This document shows positions 1 to 7,705 of a DNA stretch of 10,731 bases, in pieces. The DNA comes from Akkermansiaceae bacterium (lineage in GTDB: Bacteria; Verrucomicrobiota; Verrucomicrobiia; Verrucomicrobiales; Akkermansiaceae), in contig JAQGPE010000643.1 of assembly GCA_028293225.1 (NCBI GenBank), forward strand, positions 1 to 10,731, in the 5' to 3' direction. The position numbers and the translations under genes were made by a program. The notes beneath the pieces are model-generated. The model was not told the origin of the DNA, made no database searches, and saw only the letters and a program-made list of their open reading frames with translations. Numbering within the stretch: the first letter of the stretch is position 1; each line of letters opens with the position of its first letter.

Positions 1-525
1 GCCCGGGGAACCGCCGAAGGCAGTGCGCAACTCGGCCCTCATCTCATCCATGGGCCGGGCGGAACCGGCGTCCAGCGGTGAGAAATGATAGACCTTTTGA
101 CCGATTGGGTCAGCGGAGTCCTCCTGCGCAAGGACCAGCCTGGAAAGCAGGGCGTCCGCTGAGAGCCGGCGATATTTGCCAACGATTCCTGTCGCTTCTT
201 CCAGGCGTTCTCTGGCGATGCCCCGGCTGGCCAGCCACTCCGGATCGAGAGCGCCTGACTGCTGATCAAATGGACTCACTTCCTTTCTCCCCGGAGCGGT
301 GGAGGGGCGAACCGGCCGAGCTTGGGGCGACGGAAAAGGATCGGACGATGAAATGCCATGCTCGGACCGGCTTTGGCGGGAGGTCCCGGAGTCGCCATGT
401 GACCCGTGGAGACCGTGTGGCCGCTGCCACATGAGGATGGCGACGATGGCGGCCAGAACCAGGAAACCTGCCGAAAGGAACAGGCCAATGGAGCGACGAC
501 GGCTGACGGAATTCAACGACGCCAT
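1..525 (-). CDS. Single-pass membrane protein of unknown function, N-terminal part (runs off the window)
   Basis: The minus strand stays open from the ATG at 525 to the window edge, giving 175 codons with no stop. Residues 1-12 are basic (SRRRS near 8-12). A transmembrane helix spans about 13-33 (SIGLFLSAGFLVLAAIVAIL) and is followed by MWQRP. A Ser/Pro/Gly/His-rich linker covers about 36-88. A more ordered, charged and probably helical part begins near residue 90 (SGALDPEWLASRGI) and contains RERLEEATGIVGKYRRLSADAL. The layout suggests a short cytoplasmic N-terminus and an extracytoplasmic C-terminal domain. I do not recognise the family. An in-frame ATG at 606 would add 27 residues, but 525 is preferred because it has a weak AAGG upstream and places the basic stretch just before the membrane helix. 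It lies 114 bases downstream of the 75-residue membrane protein on the same strand, so it is probably the same transcription unit. Confidence 0.72.
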   Translation of the reverse strand, partial: MASLNSVSRRRSIGLFLSAGFLVLAAIVAILMWQRPHGLHGSHGDSGTSRQSRSEHGISSSDPFPSPQARPVRPSTAPGRKEVSPFDQQSGALDPEWLASRGIARERLEEATGIVGKYRRLSADALLSRLVLAQEDSADPIGQKVYHFSPLDAGSARPMDEMRAELRTAFGGSPG

Positions 526-639
526 GTTGCCTTGTTCGCCCGGCAGAGCAAGCCTCTGTCCGGCCGGAGGCGACCCGAGTACGACCGATCGGATCAGCCG
601 CCACATGAATCGATGAAGGGCTGGTGAACAGGGGGGAGC

Positions 640-963: not shown

Positions 964-2178
964 CTACTTCTTTTCGAACCGCTTGCGGACTTCTTCCGGC
1001 ACTTCGTGGGCGTCCAGCCATTTTCCCGCAGCATTCGCATCCTTCTCTGACCAGACGCGTAGTAATTCACCATAGTATTCGGCCAGATCGCGATCCGGCG
1101 GCATGTGGGAGAGAAGGTCCAGGGCAATCGCGGGTTCCTTCTCATAGGTCAGGGCGATGCCGCGGTAGACGAGGAGGAAATCCAGTTCCGCGGGGTATTG
1201 ATTCAGGAGGGCCGCGAGGGCCACGGGATCCTGCTTCAGCGCCTGTCCCTCAATCAGCCCCTGAAGAGCCTCGCGATGCACGCCGGTGCCTGGCTCCAGC
1301 GTGGCGAAGGCCTCCCGGGCGGCCGCGGGGTCGCGGTCGCTCCAGGCGGTGAACAGGGCGGTAGCCCCGGTCGCAGGAAAACGACTGCCCAGATCACCGG
1401 AATACTTCCTGAGCCAGGGCAGGGCTTGCTGTGGATGGTCGACGGAAATATTTCCCACCACGGCTGCCAGCGCCTCCTGACGGGGGCGGCCGGCGGCAAA
1501 GGAGTCGAGCCAGTTTTCAATTGCGGCGTCACCGCCTTTCATGATCTCCGCGGTGATTCCCGGAAGGGTCGCCGTGCGGGTCGCTTCGTCGAGTTCGGAC
1601 AGTTTGGCAATCGCCGACTCAGGGTGACCGGCGGTGATGGAGGGAATGACGAGCGGCAGCAACTGATTCGCCAGCTTGCCGGTGGCGTGACGATCCACCC
1701 AATCGAAAGCGGCCTGGGGATCGAGCGAACTCCAGGCGGCGATCACGATCTTCAGCGCGGGCGGATCTCCGGCCGCGCCGTCAACGGCGGCCGTGGGGTT
1801 GATCTTCGTCCAGGCGGCCAGGAGCAGGCGACAGATGTCGGCATCGGCGGTGAGATGCATTTCCCGGCAGGCAGCGAGCAACGGCGGAAAATCCGCCGGT
1901 CCGAGGTCGTCCACCAGCAGAAGAAGGGCGCGGCTGCGGGCGAGAGGATCGGTGAGGGCCGCGAGGCTGCGGAGCCTGCGCTCTTTGGCGGCGCGCGCGG
2001 CCGGAGATGAGGAGGACTCCCCGGGAACGGCCGGCCCCGTCCATGCAGGAAGCCTTGCAGGCCCGGTTAACTCCGCTGTCGCCGGAGCGGAGAGCGCGGC
2101 ACGGTGGCGCAGCAGCATTGCCGAGGAGGCGAGAAGCGAAATACCGACGATGCCGGTGGAGAAACGGGAGGGTCTCAT
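964..2178 (-). CDS. Membrane-anchored alpha-solenoid protein of the DPxxA repeat family
   Basis: The protein has 404 residues when started at the ATG at 2178. A hydrophobic anchor or uncleaved signal spans about 8-23 (TGIVGISLLASSAMLL), followed by an Ala/Pro/Ser-rich linker to about 65. From about 125 onward a motif like DPxxAxxW/L recurs at residues 127, 153, 185, 217, 248, 283, 317, 348 and 380, a spacing of 31-34 after the first. This looks like a helical-hairpin solenoid comparable to TPR or HEAT folds. The C-terminus (WSEKDANAAGKWLDAHEVPEEVR) closely matches the end of the sigma factor encoded just upstream: 12 of 23 aligned residues are identical. The gene starts 16 bases after the sigma stop codon, so translational coupling is likely. 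The frame stays open for 234 bases upstream into the sigma gene, but that extension has no anchor at its start and overlaps clear coding sequence. Function unknown; partner of the sigma factor by inference. Confidence 0.85.
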   Translation of the reverse strand: MRPSRFSTGIVGISLLASSAMLLRHRAALSAPATAELTGPARLPAWTGPAVPGESSSSPAARAAKERRLRSLAALTDPLARSRALLLLVDDLGPADFPPLLAACREMHLTADADICRLLLAAWTKINPTAAVDGAAGDPPALKIVIAAWSSLDPQAAFDWVDRHATGKLANQLLPLVIPSITAGHPESAIAKLSELDEATRTATLPGITAEIMKGGDAAIENWLDSFAAGRPRQEALAAVVGNISVDHPQQALPWLRKYSGDLGSRFPATGATALFTAWSDRDPAAAREAFATLEPGTGVHREALQGLIEGQALKQDPVALAALLNQYPAELDFLLVYRGIALTYEKEPAIALDLLSHMPPDRDLAEYYGELLRVWSEKDANAAGKWLDAHEVPEEVRKRFEKK

Positions 2179-2194: not shown

Positions 2195-4093
2195 TCAGCG
2201 GGGTTCGAAATTGCGCACGTCGTCGGAAACCTCATGGGTCTCCAGCCAGGCCCGGGCCGCGGCCGGGTCCTTCTGCTTCCACAGGTAAAGACTGGTGCCG
2301 CAGAAGCCGTCGCGGACTTCCCCTGGCTCGGTTTCCCAGGAAATCTGTGCCACGCGATCGGGACGGCTCTCCAGATCCACCGCTTCTCCGACATCATGAA
2401 CGATCCCGCCATTCAGGCCTGCCTTGTATTGCTCCATGAGCTGGATGGCGGCGTGGAGGTCCCGATAGGCGGTTTGACGGGCCACTCCGTGGAGAGCGGC
2501 GGAGAGCAATTCTCCAGGAACCGTGGCAAGTGAGGCGCCCGCAGCGGCATCGTCCTCCATCGCCCACCTCACGAACACCAGGGAGACTTCAGAGGCTTCA
2601 GCGGCTTGCGGGTGCTCCATGAGCAGACGGGCGGCGGCGGCGGGATCGCTTTGCGATTTCGCGAGAGCGGAGGCGGTGATGAGCGCGCCGCGCTGGTCGT
2701 CGTCCTTCGTGACGGCGAGCAGGCTTTCGAGAGGATCGGAGTCGCGGGTCATGGTTTCGAAGAGAAGGCGCAGGGCGCCGCGGCGCTCCTCCTTTGGCAA
2801 CTCCGAGACCATGGACATCGCACGGGACGGATCGACGCGGGCGATGCCTGCCAGGACATAGGACAGGCGGACATTGCCACCGTCGCGGCTGCCAAATTCC
2901 TCTTTCTGGGAATTCGCCCTGGCCCAGGCGACGGCGGCGTCCGGATCGAAGGCCGCCCAACAGGCGGCCATGTCCTCGATGAACTGAGGAGTGGTGGCAA
3001 GCGCGGCTGCCAGGGCGGAGGGAGCATCGGCCCTGGTCCAGGCGAGCATCATGAGTTTGCGCTCGTCCGTGCGATCGACCCGGTCGAGGGATTTGAAATG
3101 ACGGGCGATTTCCTCGAATTGGGCGGGAGGCGTCTTTTCCAGGAAAGCGACCAACTCGCGGCGGCGCTCGATGAGATCGCCGATGGCGAGGATTTCCCGC
3201 AACCGCTCCAGCCGGCCGGCGGGGGAAGCAGGCAGTCGCTCCGTGCGCGAGCGTGGATGGCTTTCACCGGCCAGCGGTGCGAGTGAAGGCACTGTGTGGG
3301 GGCGGGCAGCGGTGAGGTCCTGAGGGGAGCGCCACGGGGTGGTGTAGGCGGCGGTGCTGAGGAGGATGAGCAGCGCGGCGCCGGCGGCGAGCTTATGAGC
3401 TGAGGTCATGGCGAGGAGGTTCGAGAAAGGCCCGGGAGGGAGGGCGGGCAGAATGCCGTGAGCGGCCTGGCAGACGGAGGTGGCGAGAAAGGGCGGCGCG
3501 AGCTCCGCGGCATGGGCGGGCAGCAGCATCCCCAGCGCGGCGGCGGAAGTGGCGATGCCGCGGCGGGCGAGCAGCGTGCGGAGCTTTTCCACGGCGCGGG
3601 AGGAGCGCTTGCGGGCGGCCTCCTCGCTGAGGCCGAGCATTTCGCCGACGGCGACGTGGGAGAGATTCCGGTAGAAGCGCAGCAGGACGATCTCGCGATC
3701 CCGGGCGGAAAGCCGGTCGACGAGTTCATCGATCACCGGGGCCAGTTGCGCCCACTCGGGCTCGGTGGAGGCGTCCATGGACGATTGCGGTTGGGCGGCC
3801 TTGCGTTCGCGCAGGCGGCGGCGTTTCTCCGAGCGGACCAGGTCGATGGCCAGCGAGCGGCAGGTCCGGTGCAGCCAGGCGGTCAGCGCCAGCTCACGCG
3901 GGATGAGGGTGGCGCGGCGAGCGAGCCGGATGAAGGTGCTCTGGGTGACGTCGCGCGCCAGATCATCACTGGCGGTGATGCGGCGGGCGGCGGCGTGGAC
4001 CAGATTCAGGTGGCGACGGACCAGGGCCTGAAAGGCGGCCTCATCGCGCCGGGCGATGAAGTCGTGGAGGAGTTCGTGGTCCGGTCGTTCCAT
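2195..4093 (-). CDS. ECF-type sigma-70 factor fused to a transmembrane segment and C-terminal helical repeat domain
   Basis: The protein has 632 residues, about three times the usual ECF sigma length. Sigma region 2 covers about 17-92, including DEAAFQALVRRHLNLVHAAA, DDLARDVTQSTFIRLARR, and TAWLHRTCRSLAIDLVRSEK with the basic RRRLRERK. Region 4 covers about 118-178, with LSARDREIVLLRFYRNLS and the helix-turn-helix VAVGEMLGLSEEAARKRSSR. A hydrophobic Ala/Pro-rich linker at 180-230 follows. One transmembrane helix spans about 233-252 (HKLAAGAALLILLSTAAY). The rest, about 255-632, carries degenerate DPxxAxxW/L units near residues 356, 383, 421, 453, 483, 514, 545 and 609. The predicted topology puts the sigma domains in the cytoplasm and the repeats outside. 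No separate anti-sigma gene is seen, so the extension may hold or sense in cis. The start at 4093 gives the intact region 2; no Shine-Dalgarno is visible. Sigma identity is firm; the role of the extension is inferred. Confidence 0.93.
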   Translation of the reverse strand: MERPDHELLHDFIARRDEAAFQALVRRHLNLVHAAARRITASDDLARDVTQSTFIRLARRATLIPRELALTAWLHRTCRSLAIDLVRSEKRRRLRERKAAQPQSSMDASTEPEWAQLAPVIDELVDRLSARDREIVLLRFYRNLSHVAVGEMLGLSEEAARKRSSRAVEKLRTLLARRGIATSAAALGMLLPAHAAELAPPFLATSVCQAAHGILPALPPGPFSNLLAMTSAHKLAAGAALLILLSTAAYTTPWRSPQDLTAARPHTVPSLAPLAGESHPRSRTERLPASPAGRLERLREILAIGDLIERRRELVAFLEKTPPAQFEEIARHFKSLDRVDRTDERKLMMLAWTRADAPSALAAALATTPQFIEDMAACWAAFDPDAAVAWARANSQKEEFGSRDGGNVRLSYVLAGIARVDPSRAMSMVSELPKEERRGALRLLFETMTRDSDPLESLLAVTKDDDQRGALITASALAKSQSDPAAAARLLMEHPQAAEASEVSLVFVRWAMEDDAAAGASLATVPGELLSAALHGVARQTAYRDLHAAIQLMEQYKAGLNGGIVHDVGEAVDLESRPDRVAQISWETEPGEVRDGFCGTSLYLWKQKDPAAARAWLETHEVSDDVRNFEPR

Positions 4094-4115
4094 GTTTCGC
4101 GGGGTATTCGAAACA
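4093..4115. promoter_or_regulatory. Inverted repeat abutting the sigma factor start codon
   Basis: TGTTTCG at 4093-4099 and CGAAACA at 4109-4115 form perfect 7-bp arms around a 9-base spacer. The first base of the sigma ATG is the last base of one arm. In mRNA this could fold into a hairpin touching the start codon. In DNA it could be an operator for autoregulation. About 20 bp further upstream of the gene, an AT-rich patch (AATATT at 4135-4140) reads TATTCT on the minus strand and could be a -10 element, but no convincing -35 is seen. The repeat is directly visible; its function is inferred. Confidence 0.4.
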
Positions 4116-4232
4116 GCGGAGACAAAGCGGACAGAATATTTTCAGGGAAGTGGCCGGAAAGAGGACGCTTGCCCGTGGCCGGGCGGCGGCATGGGGAAGG
4201 CAGGCTGTTTGGTCCCGGCTGAGAAGCTGTGC

Positions 4233-4727
4233 TTATTTTTTCGGCAGGTACTTTGCCCGCTCCTCCTCCGGGATGAACTCCGGGTTGTCGTAGAGCAGGA
4301 AGAGGCTGCCGTTTTTCCCGGGGGAACGGTAGGCGCCCTCGGCCTCCAGCAGGCGGGAGGCGATGGCGGTCATCTCCCAGGCATCGTCCTCGGTGCCGGG
4401 CCAGGTGGGATCGGTGAGCTTGGCGATGCCGGCGTCGGCGCCGAACTCGCGAACCTGGGCGATGGGACCGATGTCGACGTCCTGGAGGTGCGGATTGGCC
4501 CATGACCACATCCAGGTATCCGACTCGGCCGAAGTGGAGCCGACGATGGTCACCTGGGCGCGGACCTTCGGGACGCCGGGGTCGCTCCACCAGATCTCAC
4601 GGTTGCGGAGGTCGTATTGGTAGAAAGCGCAATCGCCGATGCCGAAGAACCGGTTGACCTTGGTGTTGGCGGCCTTGAGGTAGGCCGTGGCCTGGGCGAC
4701 GAGTTCTTCGTATTCGGTGTAATCCAT
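4233..4727 (-). CDS. DUF6882-like protein of unknown function
   Basis: The protein has 164 residues, no signal peptide and no membrane segment, so it is probably cytoplasmic. It is acidic and aromatic-rich. Notable segments are FFGIGDCAFYQYDLRNREIWW at about 27-47, TIVGSTSAESDTWMWSWANP near 60-79, VREFGADAGI near 92-101, and EMTAIASRLLEAEGAYRSP near 118-136. The tail is charged and ends KYLPKK. The tryptophan-rich WMWSWANP block, the following VREFG and the late AYRSP resemble, from memory, the DUF6882 family, which has no established biochemical role. No catalytic motif is evident. It lies 139 bases upstream of the sigma factor on the same strand and is divergent from the repeat protein at 4865. 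It may share the sigma factor transcript, or be a chance neighbour. Its start has a C-rich leader (CCCCCACTCACC) and no Shine-Dalgarno. Confidence 0.82.
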   Translation of the reverse strand: MDYTEYEELVAQATAYLKAANTKVNRFFGIGDCAFYQYDLRNREIWWSDPGVPKVRAQVTIVGSTSAESDTWMWSWANPHLQDVDIGPIAQVREFGADAGIAKLTDPTWPGTEDDAWEMTAIASRLLEAEGAYRSPGKNGSLFLLYDNPEFIPEEERAKYLPKK

Positions 4728-4864: not shown

Positions 4865-6277
4865 ATGAAAAAAGCAGCGCTCCTCCTTTCGGCGTGCGGC
4901 CTGGTGCTGGGCGGGTATCTGCTGGGCCGGGCCTCGTCGATCTCCACCGCCGGCGCAGGCCTGGACGCCACCGCGACCGCCGCTGCCGGGCGGCCGTCGC
5001 GCGAGACGGCCGGGGAGGAGGGCGGGAGGAAAACCGCCGATCGCGGCCAGTCCGCAGCGCCGCGGAACCGTCTGGCGCAGGCCCATTTCTCCCCCGGCGG
5101 AGCCCGCCAGTGGATGCGCGAGGTGCAGCGCGGCGCGGGCGATGGCAACTCCCTGCTGAGCCGGATGCGGATCCTGGAAACGTGCTGCGCCATGGATGCC
5201 GCCGATGCCAGGGAGACGGCGACGGAGGCGCTCGCGATTCTCCGCAGTCTGCGGGAGGACGATCCCATCGCGAGGGCCGATTTCCCCAGTCGCGACCTGC
5301 AGATGCAGATGGCGAATGCGGCGCTCTACCGGCTGGCGCAGCTGGATGCCGGAGCGGCGCTGGATTTCGCGAAGGCGGACCCGGCCTTCAGCAAGAACCA
5401 CGATTTCATGCAGATGATCTTCACCAGCATGGCGGAGCAGGATCTGCCGAAGGCGACTGCCGTGCTGGCGACCCTGGAGGGCCAGGAGCTTTCCGGATCG
5501 CTGGAGGGGGTCATGAACCTGCTGGATCTCAGCGACCCGCAGGCGGCGGCAAAGTTGCTGGAGGGTTTCCCGGACCCAAGGCAGGACAACGAGCGCAAGA
5601 AGCTGATCGAGCGGGTGGCGGCATCCGATCCGGCCCTGGCCCTGAAGCTGGCAACCGGCTACGTGGCGGAGGGCAAGAGCGCCGAACTGCTGAGTGCGGC
5701 GCTGGAAAAGGGCGGCAGCGGGATGCGGCAACAGATCTCCGCGTGGGCAGCCACCTATGACGGACCGAATGCCGGGGCCGTGCATGCGGCGGTGCTGAAC
5801 GAGACGGCAAAGACGGATCCGGCGGAAGCCCGGGCGATGTATACCGAACATCAGCAAAACATCCCGCCCGGCGATCAGGAACGCTCGGCCAGGATCCTGG
5901 CGGAGAGCCTGGTCAAAGCGGACCTCGGCCAGGCGGTCGAGTGGACCGGCGGCCTGGATGACGGAGCGGGCCGCAAGGCCGCCGAGCAGACGGTGGCGAA
6001 GGCGTGGCTGAGCAAGGATCCCGACGCCGCCGTGGCGTGGATCGCTACCATCGAGGATCCCGTCAGCCATGACGACGCCGCGGAACAAGCCGCCTACGTG
6101 CTGTCCAAAGACCGCATCCAGGATGCCTTTAAACTCCTGCCCACCATGCGGGACGAGGAGCGCGGCGGGAAGACGTTTGACCGGCTGGTCGCGATCTGGT
6201 CGGAGACGAATCCCCAGGCCGCCCATGCCATGATGATGACGGCGCGGGCCAGGAAGCCGAGGCCCGCGAAGCCCTAA
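4865..6277 (+). CDS. Exported or membrane-anchored alpha-solenoid protein, DPxxA repeat family (first tandem copy)
   Basis: The protein has 470 residues when started at ATG 4865, which gives a normal N-terminal signal or anchor (MKKAALLLSACGLVLGGYLL). The longer frame from 4811 would bury this signal behind 18 residues. A low-complexity Ala/Gly/Thr/Arg linker covers about 23-75. The ordered part begins at GGARQWMREV near 78. A roughly 32-residue unit with an Asp(-Pro)xxA core recurs near residues 161, 193, 224, 255, 318, 352, 385, 416 and 449, consistent with stacked helical hairpins. The last unit reads IWSETNPQAAHAM, followed by a basic tail. Cys at 11 lacks a good lipobox, so a lipoprotein is doubtful. 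There are no catalytic motifs. It is a collinear paralogue of the next gene 36 bases downstream, and is related to the sigma factor extension and its neighbour. Probable role: envelope-located binding scaffold; ligand unknown. Confidence 0.85.
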   Translation: MKKAALLLSACGLVLGGYLLGRASSISTAGAGLDATATAAAGRPSRETAGEEGGRKTADRGQSAAPRNRLAQAHFSPGGARQWMREVQRGAGDGNSLLSRMRILETCCAMDAADARETATEALAILRSLREDDPIARADFPSRDLQMQMANAALYRLAQLDAGAALDFAKADPAFSKNHDFMQMIFTSMAEQDLPKATAVLATLEGQELSGSLEGVMNLLDLSDPQAAAKLLEGFPDPRQDNERKKLIERVAASDPALALKLATGYVAEGKSAELLSAALEKGGSGMRQQISAWAATYDGPNAGAVHAAVLNETAKTDPAEARAMYTEHQQNIPPGDQERSARILAESLVKADLGQAVEWTGGLDDGAGRKAAEQTVAKAWLSKDPDAAVAWIATIEDPVSHDDAAEQAAYVLSKDRIQDAFKLLPTMRDEERGGKTFDRLVAIWSETNPQAAHAMMMTARARKPRPAKP

Positions 6278-6313: not shown

Positions 6314-7705
6314 ATGAAGCGACCGGTCCTCCTGATTTCCGCGGCGGCGGCTGTTTTCGCGGCGGGATATTTCACGGGCCACCCGCGGTTGGGCGGAGAA
6401 GGCCGGGGAGGGTCTGAAACGGGGAAGCCGGGAGTTTTTACCGCGGGCGATCCATCGTCGCGGACTGACGATGGCGGAAACCGCGGCAAGACAGGGCTCC
6501 GCACCCAGGCTACAGCCGCGCCGGGCAAGACGCCGCTGTTTGTCCCGGGACAGAGCCGCCAGTGGATCGAGGAAATGGCCAAGCGTTCGTGGGATGGAGA
6601 TATGGTCGGGGCCATCGCTCTGGTGCAACAATGCGGCGCGCTGGATCCGGCGGCCGCTCAGGAAATGTCCGAGACCGCGCTGGAGATGATGAAGCAACTC
6701 AAAGCGGGCGACCCGGCGGTGGAGGGGCTTTTCAAGACTCCTGAGATGCTGGGGATCACCCTCATTTCCTCGATTTTCCGATTTTCCCAGAGCGATCCCC
6801 AGCGAGCTCTTGAACTTCTGGGCAAACCCCTGCCCGAAGAGGACTCCGAACTCCGGGAAATGCGCCAGATGATCTATGCCAACATGGCGAAGGTGGACCT
6901 GACCCAGGCTCTGGCCAATCTGGATACGCTGCAGGGCGGCGAGCGGGTCTCGGCGATGGATGGCGTGATCCGCTCGCTGGGGGCGAAGGACCCGCAGGCG
7001 GCGGTCGACCTCCTGCTGAAAAACTCCGGGGCGGAATATCGCGACCAGCGGCGGATGCTGGTCGAGAGGCTGGCCGCCACCGACCCCGAGTTCGCCCTGC
7101 GGGCAGCTACGAGCTTTACTGTAGGAGGGGCGGACCAGGGGCTTCTGGGCAGACTGGTCGAAAACGGTCCGCCGCAGCTGGCGGAGCAGGCGCTGGCGTG
7201 GGCAAAGGACTATAAGGGTGAGGACCGGAACGAGGTCAGCAGCCGCCTGCTGCAAGCCGTGGCGGCAAAGGACCCGGAACTGGCCGTGCAGTATCTGGAC
7301 CGGCTGGGCGCGGGAATGTCCGACGATGATGTGAGCCAGATCACTATCAATGCGGTGAATTCGCTGACCCGGAAGAGTCCTGAGGACGCCGCCAGCTGGG
7401 TGCGTGACCTGAAACCGGGACCGGTCCAGGAGGCCGCACGCCTGGCGCTGGTCCAGAGCATGATGGAGAAGGATCTGGGTGAAGCGGGTGACCTGATCAA
7501 TACCATGCAGGATGGCCCGAGAAGGGATAGCGCAGTCGGGGTGCTGGTGGGCCGTCTCGCCAGGGACTCGCCGGAAGAAGCGCTGAAATGGGTGGATACG
7601 ATGCCTGAAGGTGGCGAAAAGAAGACCCAGCGAGCCAAGGTATTCTCCGAGTGGATGCTCAAGGATCCCGACCGGGCGGCCGCGGCGTGGAACAGCGGAC
7701 CGTGA
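6314..7705 (+). CDS. Exported or membrane-anchored alpha-solenoid protein, DPxxA repeat family (second tandem copy)
   Basis: The protein has 463 residues. The N-terminus MKRPVLLISAAAAVFAAGYF is a signal peptide or anchor, followed by a Gly/Thr-rich linker to about 75. The ordered part starts with GQSRQWIEEM, equivalent to GGARQWMREV in the preceding protein. Repeat cores lie near residues 111 (LDPAAAQ), 161 (SDPQRAL), 195, 226 (KDPQAAV), 257 (TDPEFAL), 320 (KDPELAV), 355, 387, 418 and 451 (KDPDRAAAAW). From 161 on, each is within 0-3 residues of the matching unit in the upstream paralogue. A weaker unit, GPPQLAEQAL, fills the gap near 287. The two genes are therefore a tandem duplication that has diverged substantially but kept its register. 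The gap to the upstream gene is 36 bases, so they are probably cotranscribed. No enzyme motif is seen; a protein- or polymer-binding solenoid is likely. Confidence 0.86.
   Translation: MKRPVLLISAAAAVFAAGYFTGHPRLGGEGRGGSETGKPGVFTAGDPSSRTDDGGNRGKTGLRTQATAAPGKTPLFVPGQSRQWIEEMAKRSWDGDMVGAIALVQQCGALDPAAAQEMSETALEMMKQLKAGDPAVEGLFKTPEMLGITLISSIFRFSQSDPQRALELLGKPLPEEDSELREMRQMIYANMAKVDLTQALANLDTLQGGERVSAMDGVIRSLGAKDPQAAVDLLLKNSGAEYRDQRRMLVERLAATDPEFALRAATSFTVGGADQGLLGRLVENGPPQLAEQALAWAKDYKGEDRNEVSSRLLQAVAAKDPELAVQYLDRLGAGMSDDDVSQITINAVNSLTRKSPEDAASWVRDLKPGPVQEAARLALVQSMMEKDLGEAGDLINTMQDGPRRDSAVGVLVGRLARDSPEEALKWVDTMPEGGEKKTQRAKVFSEWMLKDPDRAAAAWNSGP

Follow-up and report, generated by a model that had tools for sequence, protein, structure and literature searches.

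How a sigma factor could serve as its own membrane receptor is the question raised by one open reading frame (ORF) in the window, i.e., the whole stretch of DNA analysed here (10,731 nt of contig JAQGPE010000643.1, assembly GCA_028293225.1, Akkermansiaceae bacterium). A sequence-only reading had described its product as a sigma factor with ECF regions 2 and 4, one transmembrane helix, and a domain of helical repeats outside the cytoplasm. The features of the locus, all on the reverse strand, are as follows:

2195..4093 (-): sigma ORF, predicted one-piece transmembrane ECF sigma factor; 632 aa, ATG start, intact
3818..4024 (-): Sigma-70 region 2, residues 24-92 (Pfam PF04542)
3578..3718 (-): Sigma-70 region 4, residues 126-172 (Pfam PF04545 and PF08281)
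3395..3559 (-): conserved linker from region 4 to the membrane, residues 179-233 (homologue alignment and low-confidence short helices in AF2)
3338..3394 (-): predicted single transmembrane helix, residues 234-252 (AF2 and insertion free energy)
3224..3337 (-): predicted stalk outside the membrane, probably disordered, residues 253-290 (pLDDT <50 at 246-284)
2213..3223 (-): alpha-solenoid, predicted outside the cytoplasm, residues 291-627 (AF2 on the isolated domain)
4105..4138 (-): promoter-like element TATTCTGTC-N19-CGAATA; its end lies 11 nt upstream of the sigma start codon
964..2178 (-): twin partner gene, predicted anchor at residues 5-24 followed by the same solenoid; 404 aa, starting 16 nt past the sigma stop codon

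Both sigma regions were recovered above their cut-offs in the Pfam scan (Sigma70_r2, 43.4 bits against 24; Sigma70_r4, 48.5 bits against 24.1), as was the NCBIfam model TIGR02937 sigma70-ECF (83.9 bits against 42.9). The ORF stays below the cut-off of TIGR02989 Sig-70_gvs1, which describes a Rhodopirellula/Verrucomicrobium family (42.5 against 124.55 bits). The region 2 and region 4 matches are 33 residues apart, and neither region 1.1 nor region 3 was matched in Pfam at E up to 1, which leaves regions 2 and 4 alone. By all features tested, the product of 2195-4093 (-) is an ECF sigma factor.

The AF2 model of the full-length protein, computed with 16 homologues, has a mean pLDDT of 74 and pTM of 0.47. 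Its order is region 2, region 4, three short linker helices of 8-11 residues and low confidence (184-193, 201-211, and 220-227), a helix at 231-251, an unstructured part to about residue 290, and the solenoid at 291-627. Ten-residue pLDDT means are 32-49 over residues 191-280, a range of low confidence that takes in most of the linker, the helix, and the stalk. Modelled alone, the solenoid reaches pLDDT 90.7 and pTM 0.81. Structure searches led from the N-terminal part to ECF sigma structures and from the tail to generic solenoids only (PPR/TPR comparison), and the tail matches no Pfam family at E up to 1. The earlier estimate of nearly 380 residues of helical repeats holds for the repeats and not for their length: the repeats span about 337 residues (291-627), and the stalk that precedes them takes up about 38 (253-290). 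Artificial joining of two separate genes by a sequencing error, raised in the sequence-only reading as a possible flaw, is ruled out, as the same layout is encoded in whole genomes. Homologues with 34-74% identity over 97-100% of the length lie on contigs of up to 6.4 Mb, and full-length copies of the sigma, helix, and solenoid layout were found in genomes G003, G006, G009, and G015.

Transmembrane segments were called on a positional insertion scale, with coefficients entered by hand, when below 1.5 kcal/mol. The best segment of the sigma ORF is 234-252, with a predicted insertion free energy of -0.41 kcal/mol; the best segments of the linker, sigma core, and repeat domain have 2.6-3.5 kcal/mol. 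This agrees with the helix at about 233-252 proposed earlier and with the AF2 helix at 231-251, the pLDDT of which is only about 48. The Kyte-Doolittle value of 1.63 is just above the line (>=1.6 over 19 residues), and 107 of the 120 listed homologues, taken from at least 135 matches, passed the same test. Among P0001-P0021, the closest homologues among the matches listed, the helix segment is below 1.5 kcal/mol in 21/21, with no such segment in the linker (0/21) or tail (0/21). The soluble sigma core, used as a control of the scale, was called in 1/21 of these and in 4/99 of the other listed homologues, and the rest of the tail in 0/21 and 9/99, which indicates the false-positive level of the scale. 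Overall, a helix segment within 110 residues was called in 119/120 listed homologues (21/21 and 98/99), P0059 being the exception.

The side of the membrane on which the tail lies is not indicated by charge, as K+R counts before and after the helix favour neither side (0.9 and 1.1 in the 21 closest homologues, 1.6 and 1.6 in the other 99). The domains that relatives carry in the same place are a better guide. Ten scanned relatives have, one each, LysM, TonB_C, Secretin_N, thioredoxin_2, CarboxypepD_reg, RCC1, TPR, WD40, SBP_bac_10, and erythromycin-esterase tails. LysM, TonB_C, Secretin_N, and thioredoxin_2 domains work extracytoplasmically, and one segment below 1.5 kcal/mol precedes each of them (P0048, P0047, P0096, and P0083, respectively) within the stretches tested after region 4, with a borderline linker value of 1.57 kcal/mol in the LysM protein. 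Their position past one predicted helix points to a tail outside the cytoplasm. The CarboxypepD_reg and RCC1 proteins are of no help for the topology, since the former has two segments and the latter a weak second one. Together with the single helix and the N-terminal anchor on the separate solenoid copy (see below), the relatives' domains make a one-piece membrane-anchored sigma factor with its repeat domain outside the cytoplasm, as had been suggested, well supported by computation.

The 55-residue linker is rich in Ala and Leu and has one cysteine. G179 is present in 120/120 listed homologues, L187, P200, and L203 in about three quarters, and M and K ahead of the helix in about half or more. 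Across these 120 homologues the linker is the part kept outside the sigma core, whichever domain comes after; the tail diverges much faster than the core. Similar layouts recur within the draft genome of the window, which is 61.8% complete and gave 46 matches, the counts here being taken from the loci examined, a part of these. There, 34 genes match the sigma model and 26 of them have tails of 100 aa or more; the remaining eight comprise seven with short tails and one cut by a contig end. All 26 tailed genes have a helix segment below 1.5 kcal/mol, starting 44-69 residues past the end of the sigma model. The sigma factor is a member of a large family of such putative switches in soil Verrucomicrobiota.

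The earlier statement that no anti-sigma gene lies beside the sigma gene is right insofar as no anti-sigma family was found there; it overlooked the adjoining anchored solenoid paralogue at 964-2178 (-). The solenoids of this partner and of the sigma factor align over their whole lengths and share the conserved domain end W...DP.AAR.WL..HE.P..VR. No MucB/RseB domain and no Pfam family was matched at E up to 1 (964-2181 scanned). The predicted N-terminal anchor (5-24) has 0.86 kcal/mol and is the weakest among 18 N-termini of stand-alone solenoids and sigma neighbours measured, all 18 of which are at or below this value; five neighbours with uncertain starts were left out of this count, and L102, one of the 18, had no solenoid match.

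In the examined loci, which were chosen by family match, the solenoid was found at E <1e-10 in 22 tailed sigma genes. The next gene downstream is a same-strand stand-alone solenoid gene in 15 of the 19 that could be tested, L042, L045:159, and L049 being left out for contig ends and L099, one of the 15, being split over two contigs. Six of the 15 partner genes overlap their sigma gene by 1-19 nt. The four without a partner are L045:2797, L053, L107, and L108. Weaker solenoid neighbours were present in 6/17 other tailed genes with downstream sequence. L026:1318, L022:2608, and L104:12643, from the other deep sigma clade, each overlap by 4 nt a downstream gene that weakly matches the solenoid model, and the two-gene arrangement may therefore predate the solenoid type. 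Luteolibacter luteus (G009, single contig, 6.41 Mb) has at least five stand-alone solenoid genes at E <1e-45, three of which are the neighbours of the three solenoid-type sigma genes of this genome (best 150 of 185 candidates).

Other solenoid matches were noticed at several places. In L. luteus, weak matches cluster at 235702-260502 and 99487-103997, suggesting arrays of stand-alone genes. Locus L045 (G000:C15) has two consecutive same-strand solenoid-type sigma genes with no stand-alone partner between them, and G015:C63:136629-138312 has a sigma match, an in-frame TAG, and then a solenoid match, possibly a decayed copy. In the window, 4865-6277 (+) and 6314-7705 (+) encode tandem, N-terminally anchored, distantly related solenoid proteins of 470 and 463 aa with partial model matches, which with the sigma factor and its partner makes four solenoid proteins within 7 kb. 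A search upstream of these two genes gave no sigma-type promoter element. The edge-cut ORF 1-606 (-), downstream of the partner on the same strand, has a hydrophobic stretch near its start and could be a member of the operon.

A tree was computed from 15 sigma-borne and 15 partner solenoids plus two unpaired ones. The sigma-borne domains group together at 100/97 and the partners weakly at 84/77, with a warning of the tree tool that the long partner branches C233 and C488 may join falsely. Branching among the partners largely mirrors that among the sigma-borne domains. Distances within the two sets correlate at 0.78, a value reached in 0/20,000 permutations, and nearest neighbours agree in 13/15 pairs; the window's partner is nearest to the partner of sister C172 by distance and is not grouped with it by the tree. 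By this comparison, sigma gene and partner gene are copied and inherited as one unit. Mirrored trees speak for a lasting unit and not for contact, because linked genes are co-inherited anyway; that the two solenoids pair physically we infer.

Solenoid-type genes share an upstream element TTTCC(T/G)GTC-N18/19-CG(G/A)ATA about 11 nt before the ATG. The copy at 4105-4138 has two mismatches to TTTTCTGTC-N19-CGGATA and is the only match to it in the window at up to three mismatches (0.15 expected). DUF6882 protein 4233-4727 (-) of 164 aa is encoded directly upstream of it on the same strand. In five genomes, TTTCCTGTC-N18/19-CGGATA at up to two mismatches gave 82 matches, against 71 in the backward control. 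Fourteen of the 82, nine of which come from the consensus-building set, end 8-19 nt before start codons of tailed sigma genes, where 0.008 are expected by random placement; the window copy, with three mismatches to this pattern, is outside the 14. Three of the other five were known before the search (including L102, with a borderline helix of 1.51), and two were previously unseen (G009 4624388 and G006 678266), both at genes with a helix. The other 68 matches are not above the backward control, and a wider regulon is not visible in the five genomes with this consensus. As the 14 elements stand just before tailed sigma genes and the remainder is at the control level, the simplest reading is that these genes are probably self-activating. 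No further promoter targets stand out in the five genomes, so that the cassettes may chiefly control themselves.

TT..(T/G)GTC at the right distance was found in the 70 nt before the start of 23/32 tailed sigma genes, 12/280 other genes, and 6.5% of shuffles, the 280 being other predicted genes of the same loci, unfiltered for operon position. The strict form, absent from the window gene, occurs in 15/32, 1/280, and 1%, respectively. The -10 sequence CGGATA/CGAATA with close variants belongs to 17/21 genes of one deep sigma clade and 0/10 of the other, four of whose ten genes have GTGTC-type forms that do not cluster on the tree; ten of the 31 genes fit neither -10 class, and the classes were set by eye after reading the sequences. 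The element at 4105-4138 is a candidate autoregulated, nearly leaderless promoter.

One-piece transmembrane ECF factors have been described before. In ECF52 (SCO4117 of Streptomyces coelicolor), an ECF sigma, a helix, and a C-terminal extracytoplasmic part form one polypeptide, for which the authors suggest positive autoregulation and for which proteolytic release has been proposed (PMC5826349, PMC8999054). According to the parts of these papers available, ECF52, ECF48, and ECF53 have a zinc-finger between sigma and helix, ECF52 has a carbohydrate-binding domain after a proline-rich stretch, and ECF52 is exclusive to Actinobacteria (PMC5826349, PMC8999054). Compared with those accounts, the window sigma shares the one-piece order of sigma and C-terminal helix (234-252 here) but has no zinc-finger match (Pfam E up to 1; one linker cysteine); unlike ECF52, it has an alpha-solenoid tail in place of a carbohydrate-binding domain, a Verrucomicrobiota host, and a twin gene. 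WD40-tailed ECFs (ECF57 in part) include homologues with the same sigma, linker, and helix, e.g., P0067, and others by precomputed Pfam lists; their tail is a beta-propeller, whereas that of the window sigma is a solenoid. In the RpoE-RseA-RseB system, the gene for the extracytoplasmic protein RseB lies beside that of the sigma factor. Like RseB, the partner is predicted to be extracytoplasmic, is encoded beside the sigma gene, and could guard or trigger release; here, however, sigma and anchor are one protein, and the partner is a paralogue of the sigma factor's own domain with no Pfam family.

IutY has a FecR-like tail, and the window sigma has no FecR match at Pfam E up to 1. IutY of Pseudomonas putida (ECF243) is a membrane-bound fusion of sigma and anti-sigma in cell-surface siderophore signalling and, according to the part of the 2022 review available, the only one with experimentally characterised proteolytic activation, by Prc and RseP (PMC8999054). 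The window sigma resembles it, as there described, in being a predicted one-piece membrane-bound sigma. ECF42 has an alpha-helical TPR tail of about 200 residues that is thought to bind other proteins (PMC8999054). A C-terminal alpha-helical repeat tail is common to both, but the window sigma has no TPR match (Pfam E up to 1) and has a predicted membrane helix, which the available part of that source does not mention for ECF42. By the features tested, the window sigma is not a member of ECF52, IutY, or ECF42, although its layout resembles ECF52 and IutY.

Computation thus gives an architecture with one predicted helix and an outer tail, a partner gene inherited jointly, and a promoter-like element, and the mechanism that we consider fairly probable is built on these. 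Regions 2 and 4 would be cytoplasmic, with the 55-residue linker leading to the helix and on to a periplasmic stalk and alpha-solenoid. The downstream gene would supply a second, separately anchored solenoid, most likely pairing with that of the sigma factor as co-receptor or brake. When off, the sigma would be held at the membrane; a periplasmic signal would change the solenoid pair and let the sigma reach RNA polymerase. Release would most likely take place by proteolysis in two steps, first in the stalk and second within the membrane helix, and this is the first choice because of the analogy with IutY (Prc, RseP) and the proposal for ECF52. Once free, the sigma would use the element 11 nt upstream of its ATG to transcribe the operon that encodes it, giving more sigma and partner; the signal, the cleavage, and the reading of the promoter at 4105-4138 by this very sigma are parts that we infer. 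The draft genome encodes one protease domain of the M50 (site-2-type) kind, which says little, since M50 proteases are present in 14/14 control genomes.

The main rival to proteolytic release is that the sigma works while tethered, in the manner of ToxR/CadC-type one-piece regulators, which act while in the membrane. An uncut helix would pass the solenoid signal to the linker, regions 2 and 4 would open, and polymerase would be recruited to membrane-near DNA. A sigma factor normally departs with, or from, the moving polymerase, which fits poorly with tethering. The linker kept in 120 listed homologues whatever domain follows is what would be expected of a transmission element, but it fits a built-in inhibitory element equally. 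In the planctomycete Tuwongella immobilis, some ECFs go with the membranes on fractionation, and several came out in detergent (Triton or SDS) fractions alone (PMC8567305). Membrane-associated ECFs are thus known from a related phylum; which of them carry such a helix is not stated in the part of that paper available. On this evidence tethered action is judged unlikely. Rather doubtful, too, is that linker and helix are a fused anti-sigma, as in ECF52 and IutY, with the solenoid as its sensor, a reading compatible with proteolytic release to which it would add direct inhibition by the linker. The linker occupies the place of the anti-sigma domain, and the order of sigma, inhibitory module, helix, and outer domain is that given for ECF52 in the available parts of the sources (PMC8999054, PMC5826349). 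Zinc-finger, FecR, and other anti-sigma families are, however, without match at Pfam E up to 1, the linker has a single cysteine, and its AF2 model shows short, low-confidence helices and nothing compact.

There are two further readings. If the hydrophobic, Ala/Leu-rich linker also crossed the membrane, the resulting hairpin would leave the solenoid in the cytoplasm, where it could act directly on the sigma. Linker segments below 1.5 kcal/mol in 20/98 more distant relatives and two candidate segments in 11/120 listed homologues, including the CarboxypepD_reg protein P0027, make hairpins possible in some members. For the window sigma this is very unlikely, as the linker is never below 1.5 in this protein and its 20 closest homologues, AF2 linker helices have 8-11 residues, the LysM (linker borderline), TonB_C, Secretin_N, and thioredoxin relatives have one candidate segment, and the stand-alone solenoids carry export anchors. 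In the other reading, the fused tail has decayed or serves no purpose and the sigma acts in practice as a plain soluble ECF, which would agree with the fast divergence of the tail. Open frames, the domain end conserved in sigma and partner, the helix kept in 26/26 tailed copies, and joint inheritance over 15 pairs make this extremely improbable.

Proteolytic release of a membrane-held sigma remains the preferred reading for this locus, and at the scale of the family a broader one may be advanced tentatively. These genes would form a plug-in class, in which a generic module of region 2, region 4, linker, and helix is combined with interchangeable outer sensors and has reached 26 or more copies in one genome, each self-activating from a near-leaderless promoter of its own; the solenoid type would be a two-gene cassette that includes a twin of the sensor domain. 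Histidine kinases elsewhere have multiplied similarly within genomes. One-piece transmembrane ECF factors as such are already known from ECF52 and IutY, and the apparent novelty lies in the solenoid, the twin gene, and the plug-in scale: no description of them was found in the literature searched, the main ECF classification lying outside that search. Transmembrane-receptor sigma factors have been described in a few groups, and here at least 26 are predicted in one draft genome. If the plug-in reading is true, on and off would be set by pairing of the attached with the free copy of the same domain. The shared linker, the recurring promoter element, and, for the solenoid type, the built-in partner offer a way to study how one protein can be both sigma factor and membrane receptor, as well as an entry to autoregulated operons in a phylum that has received little study.
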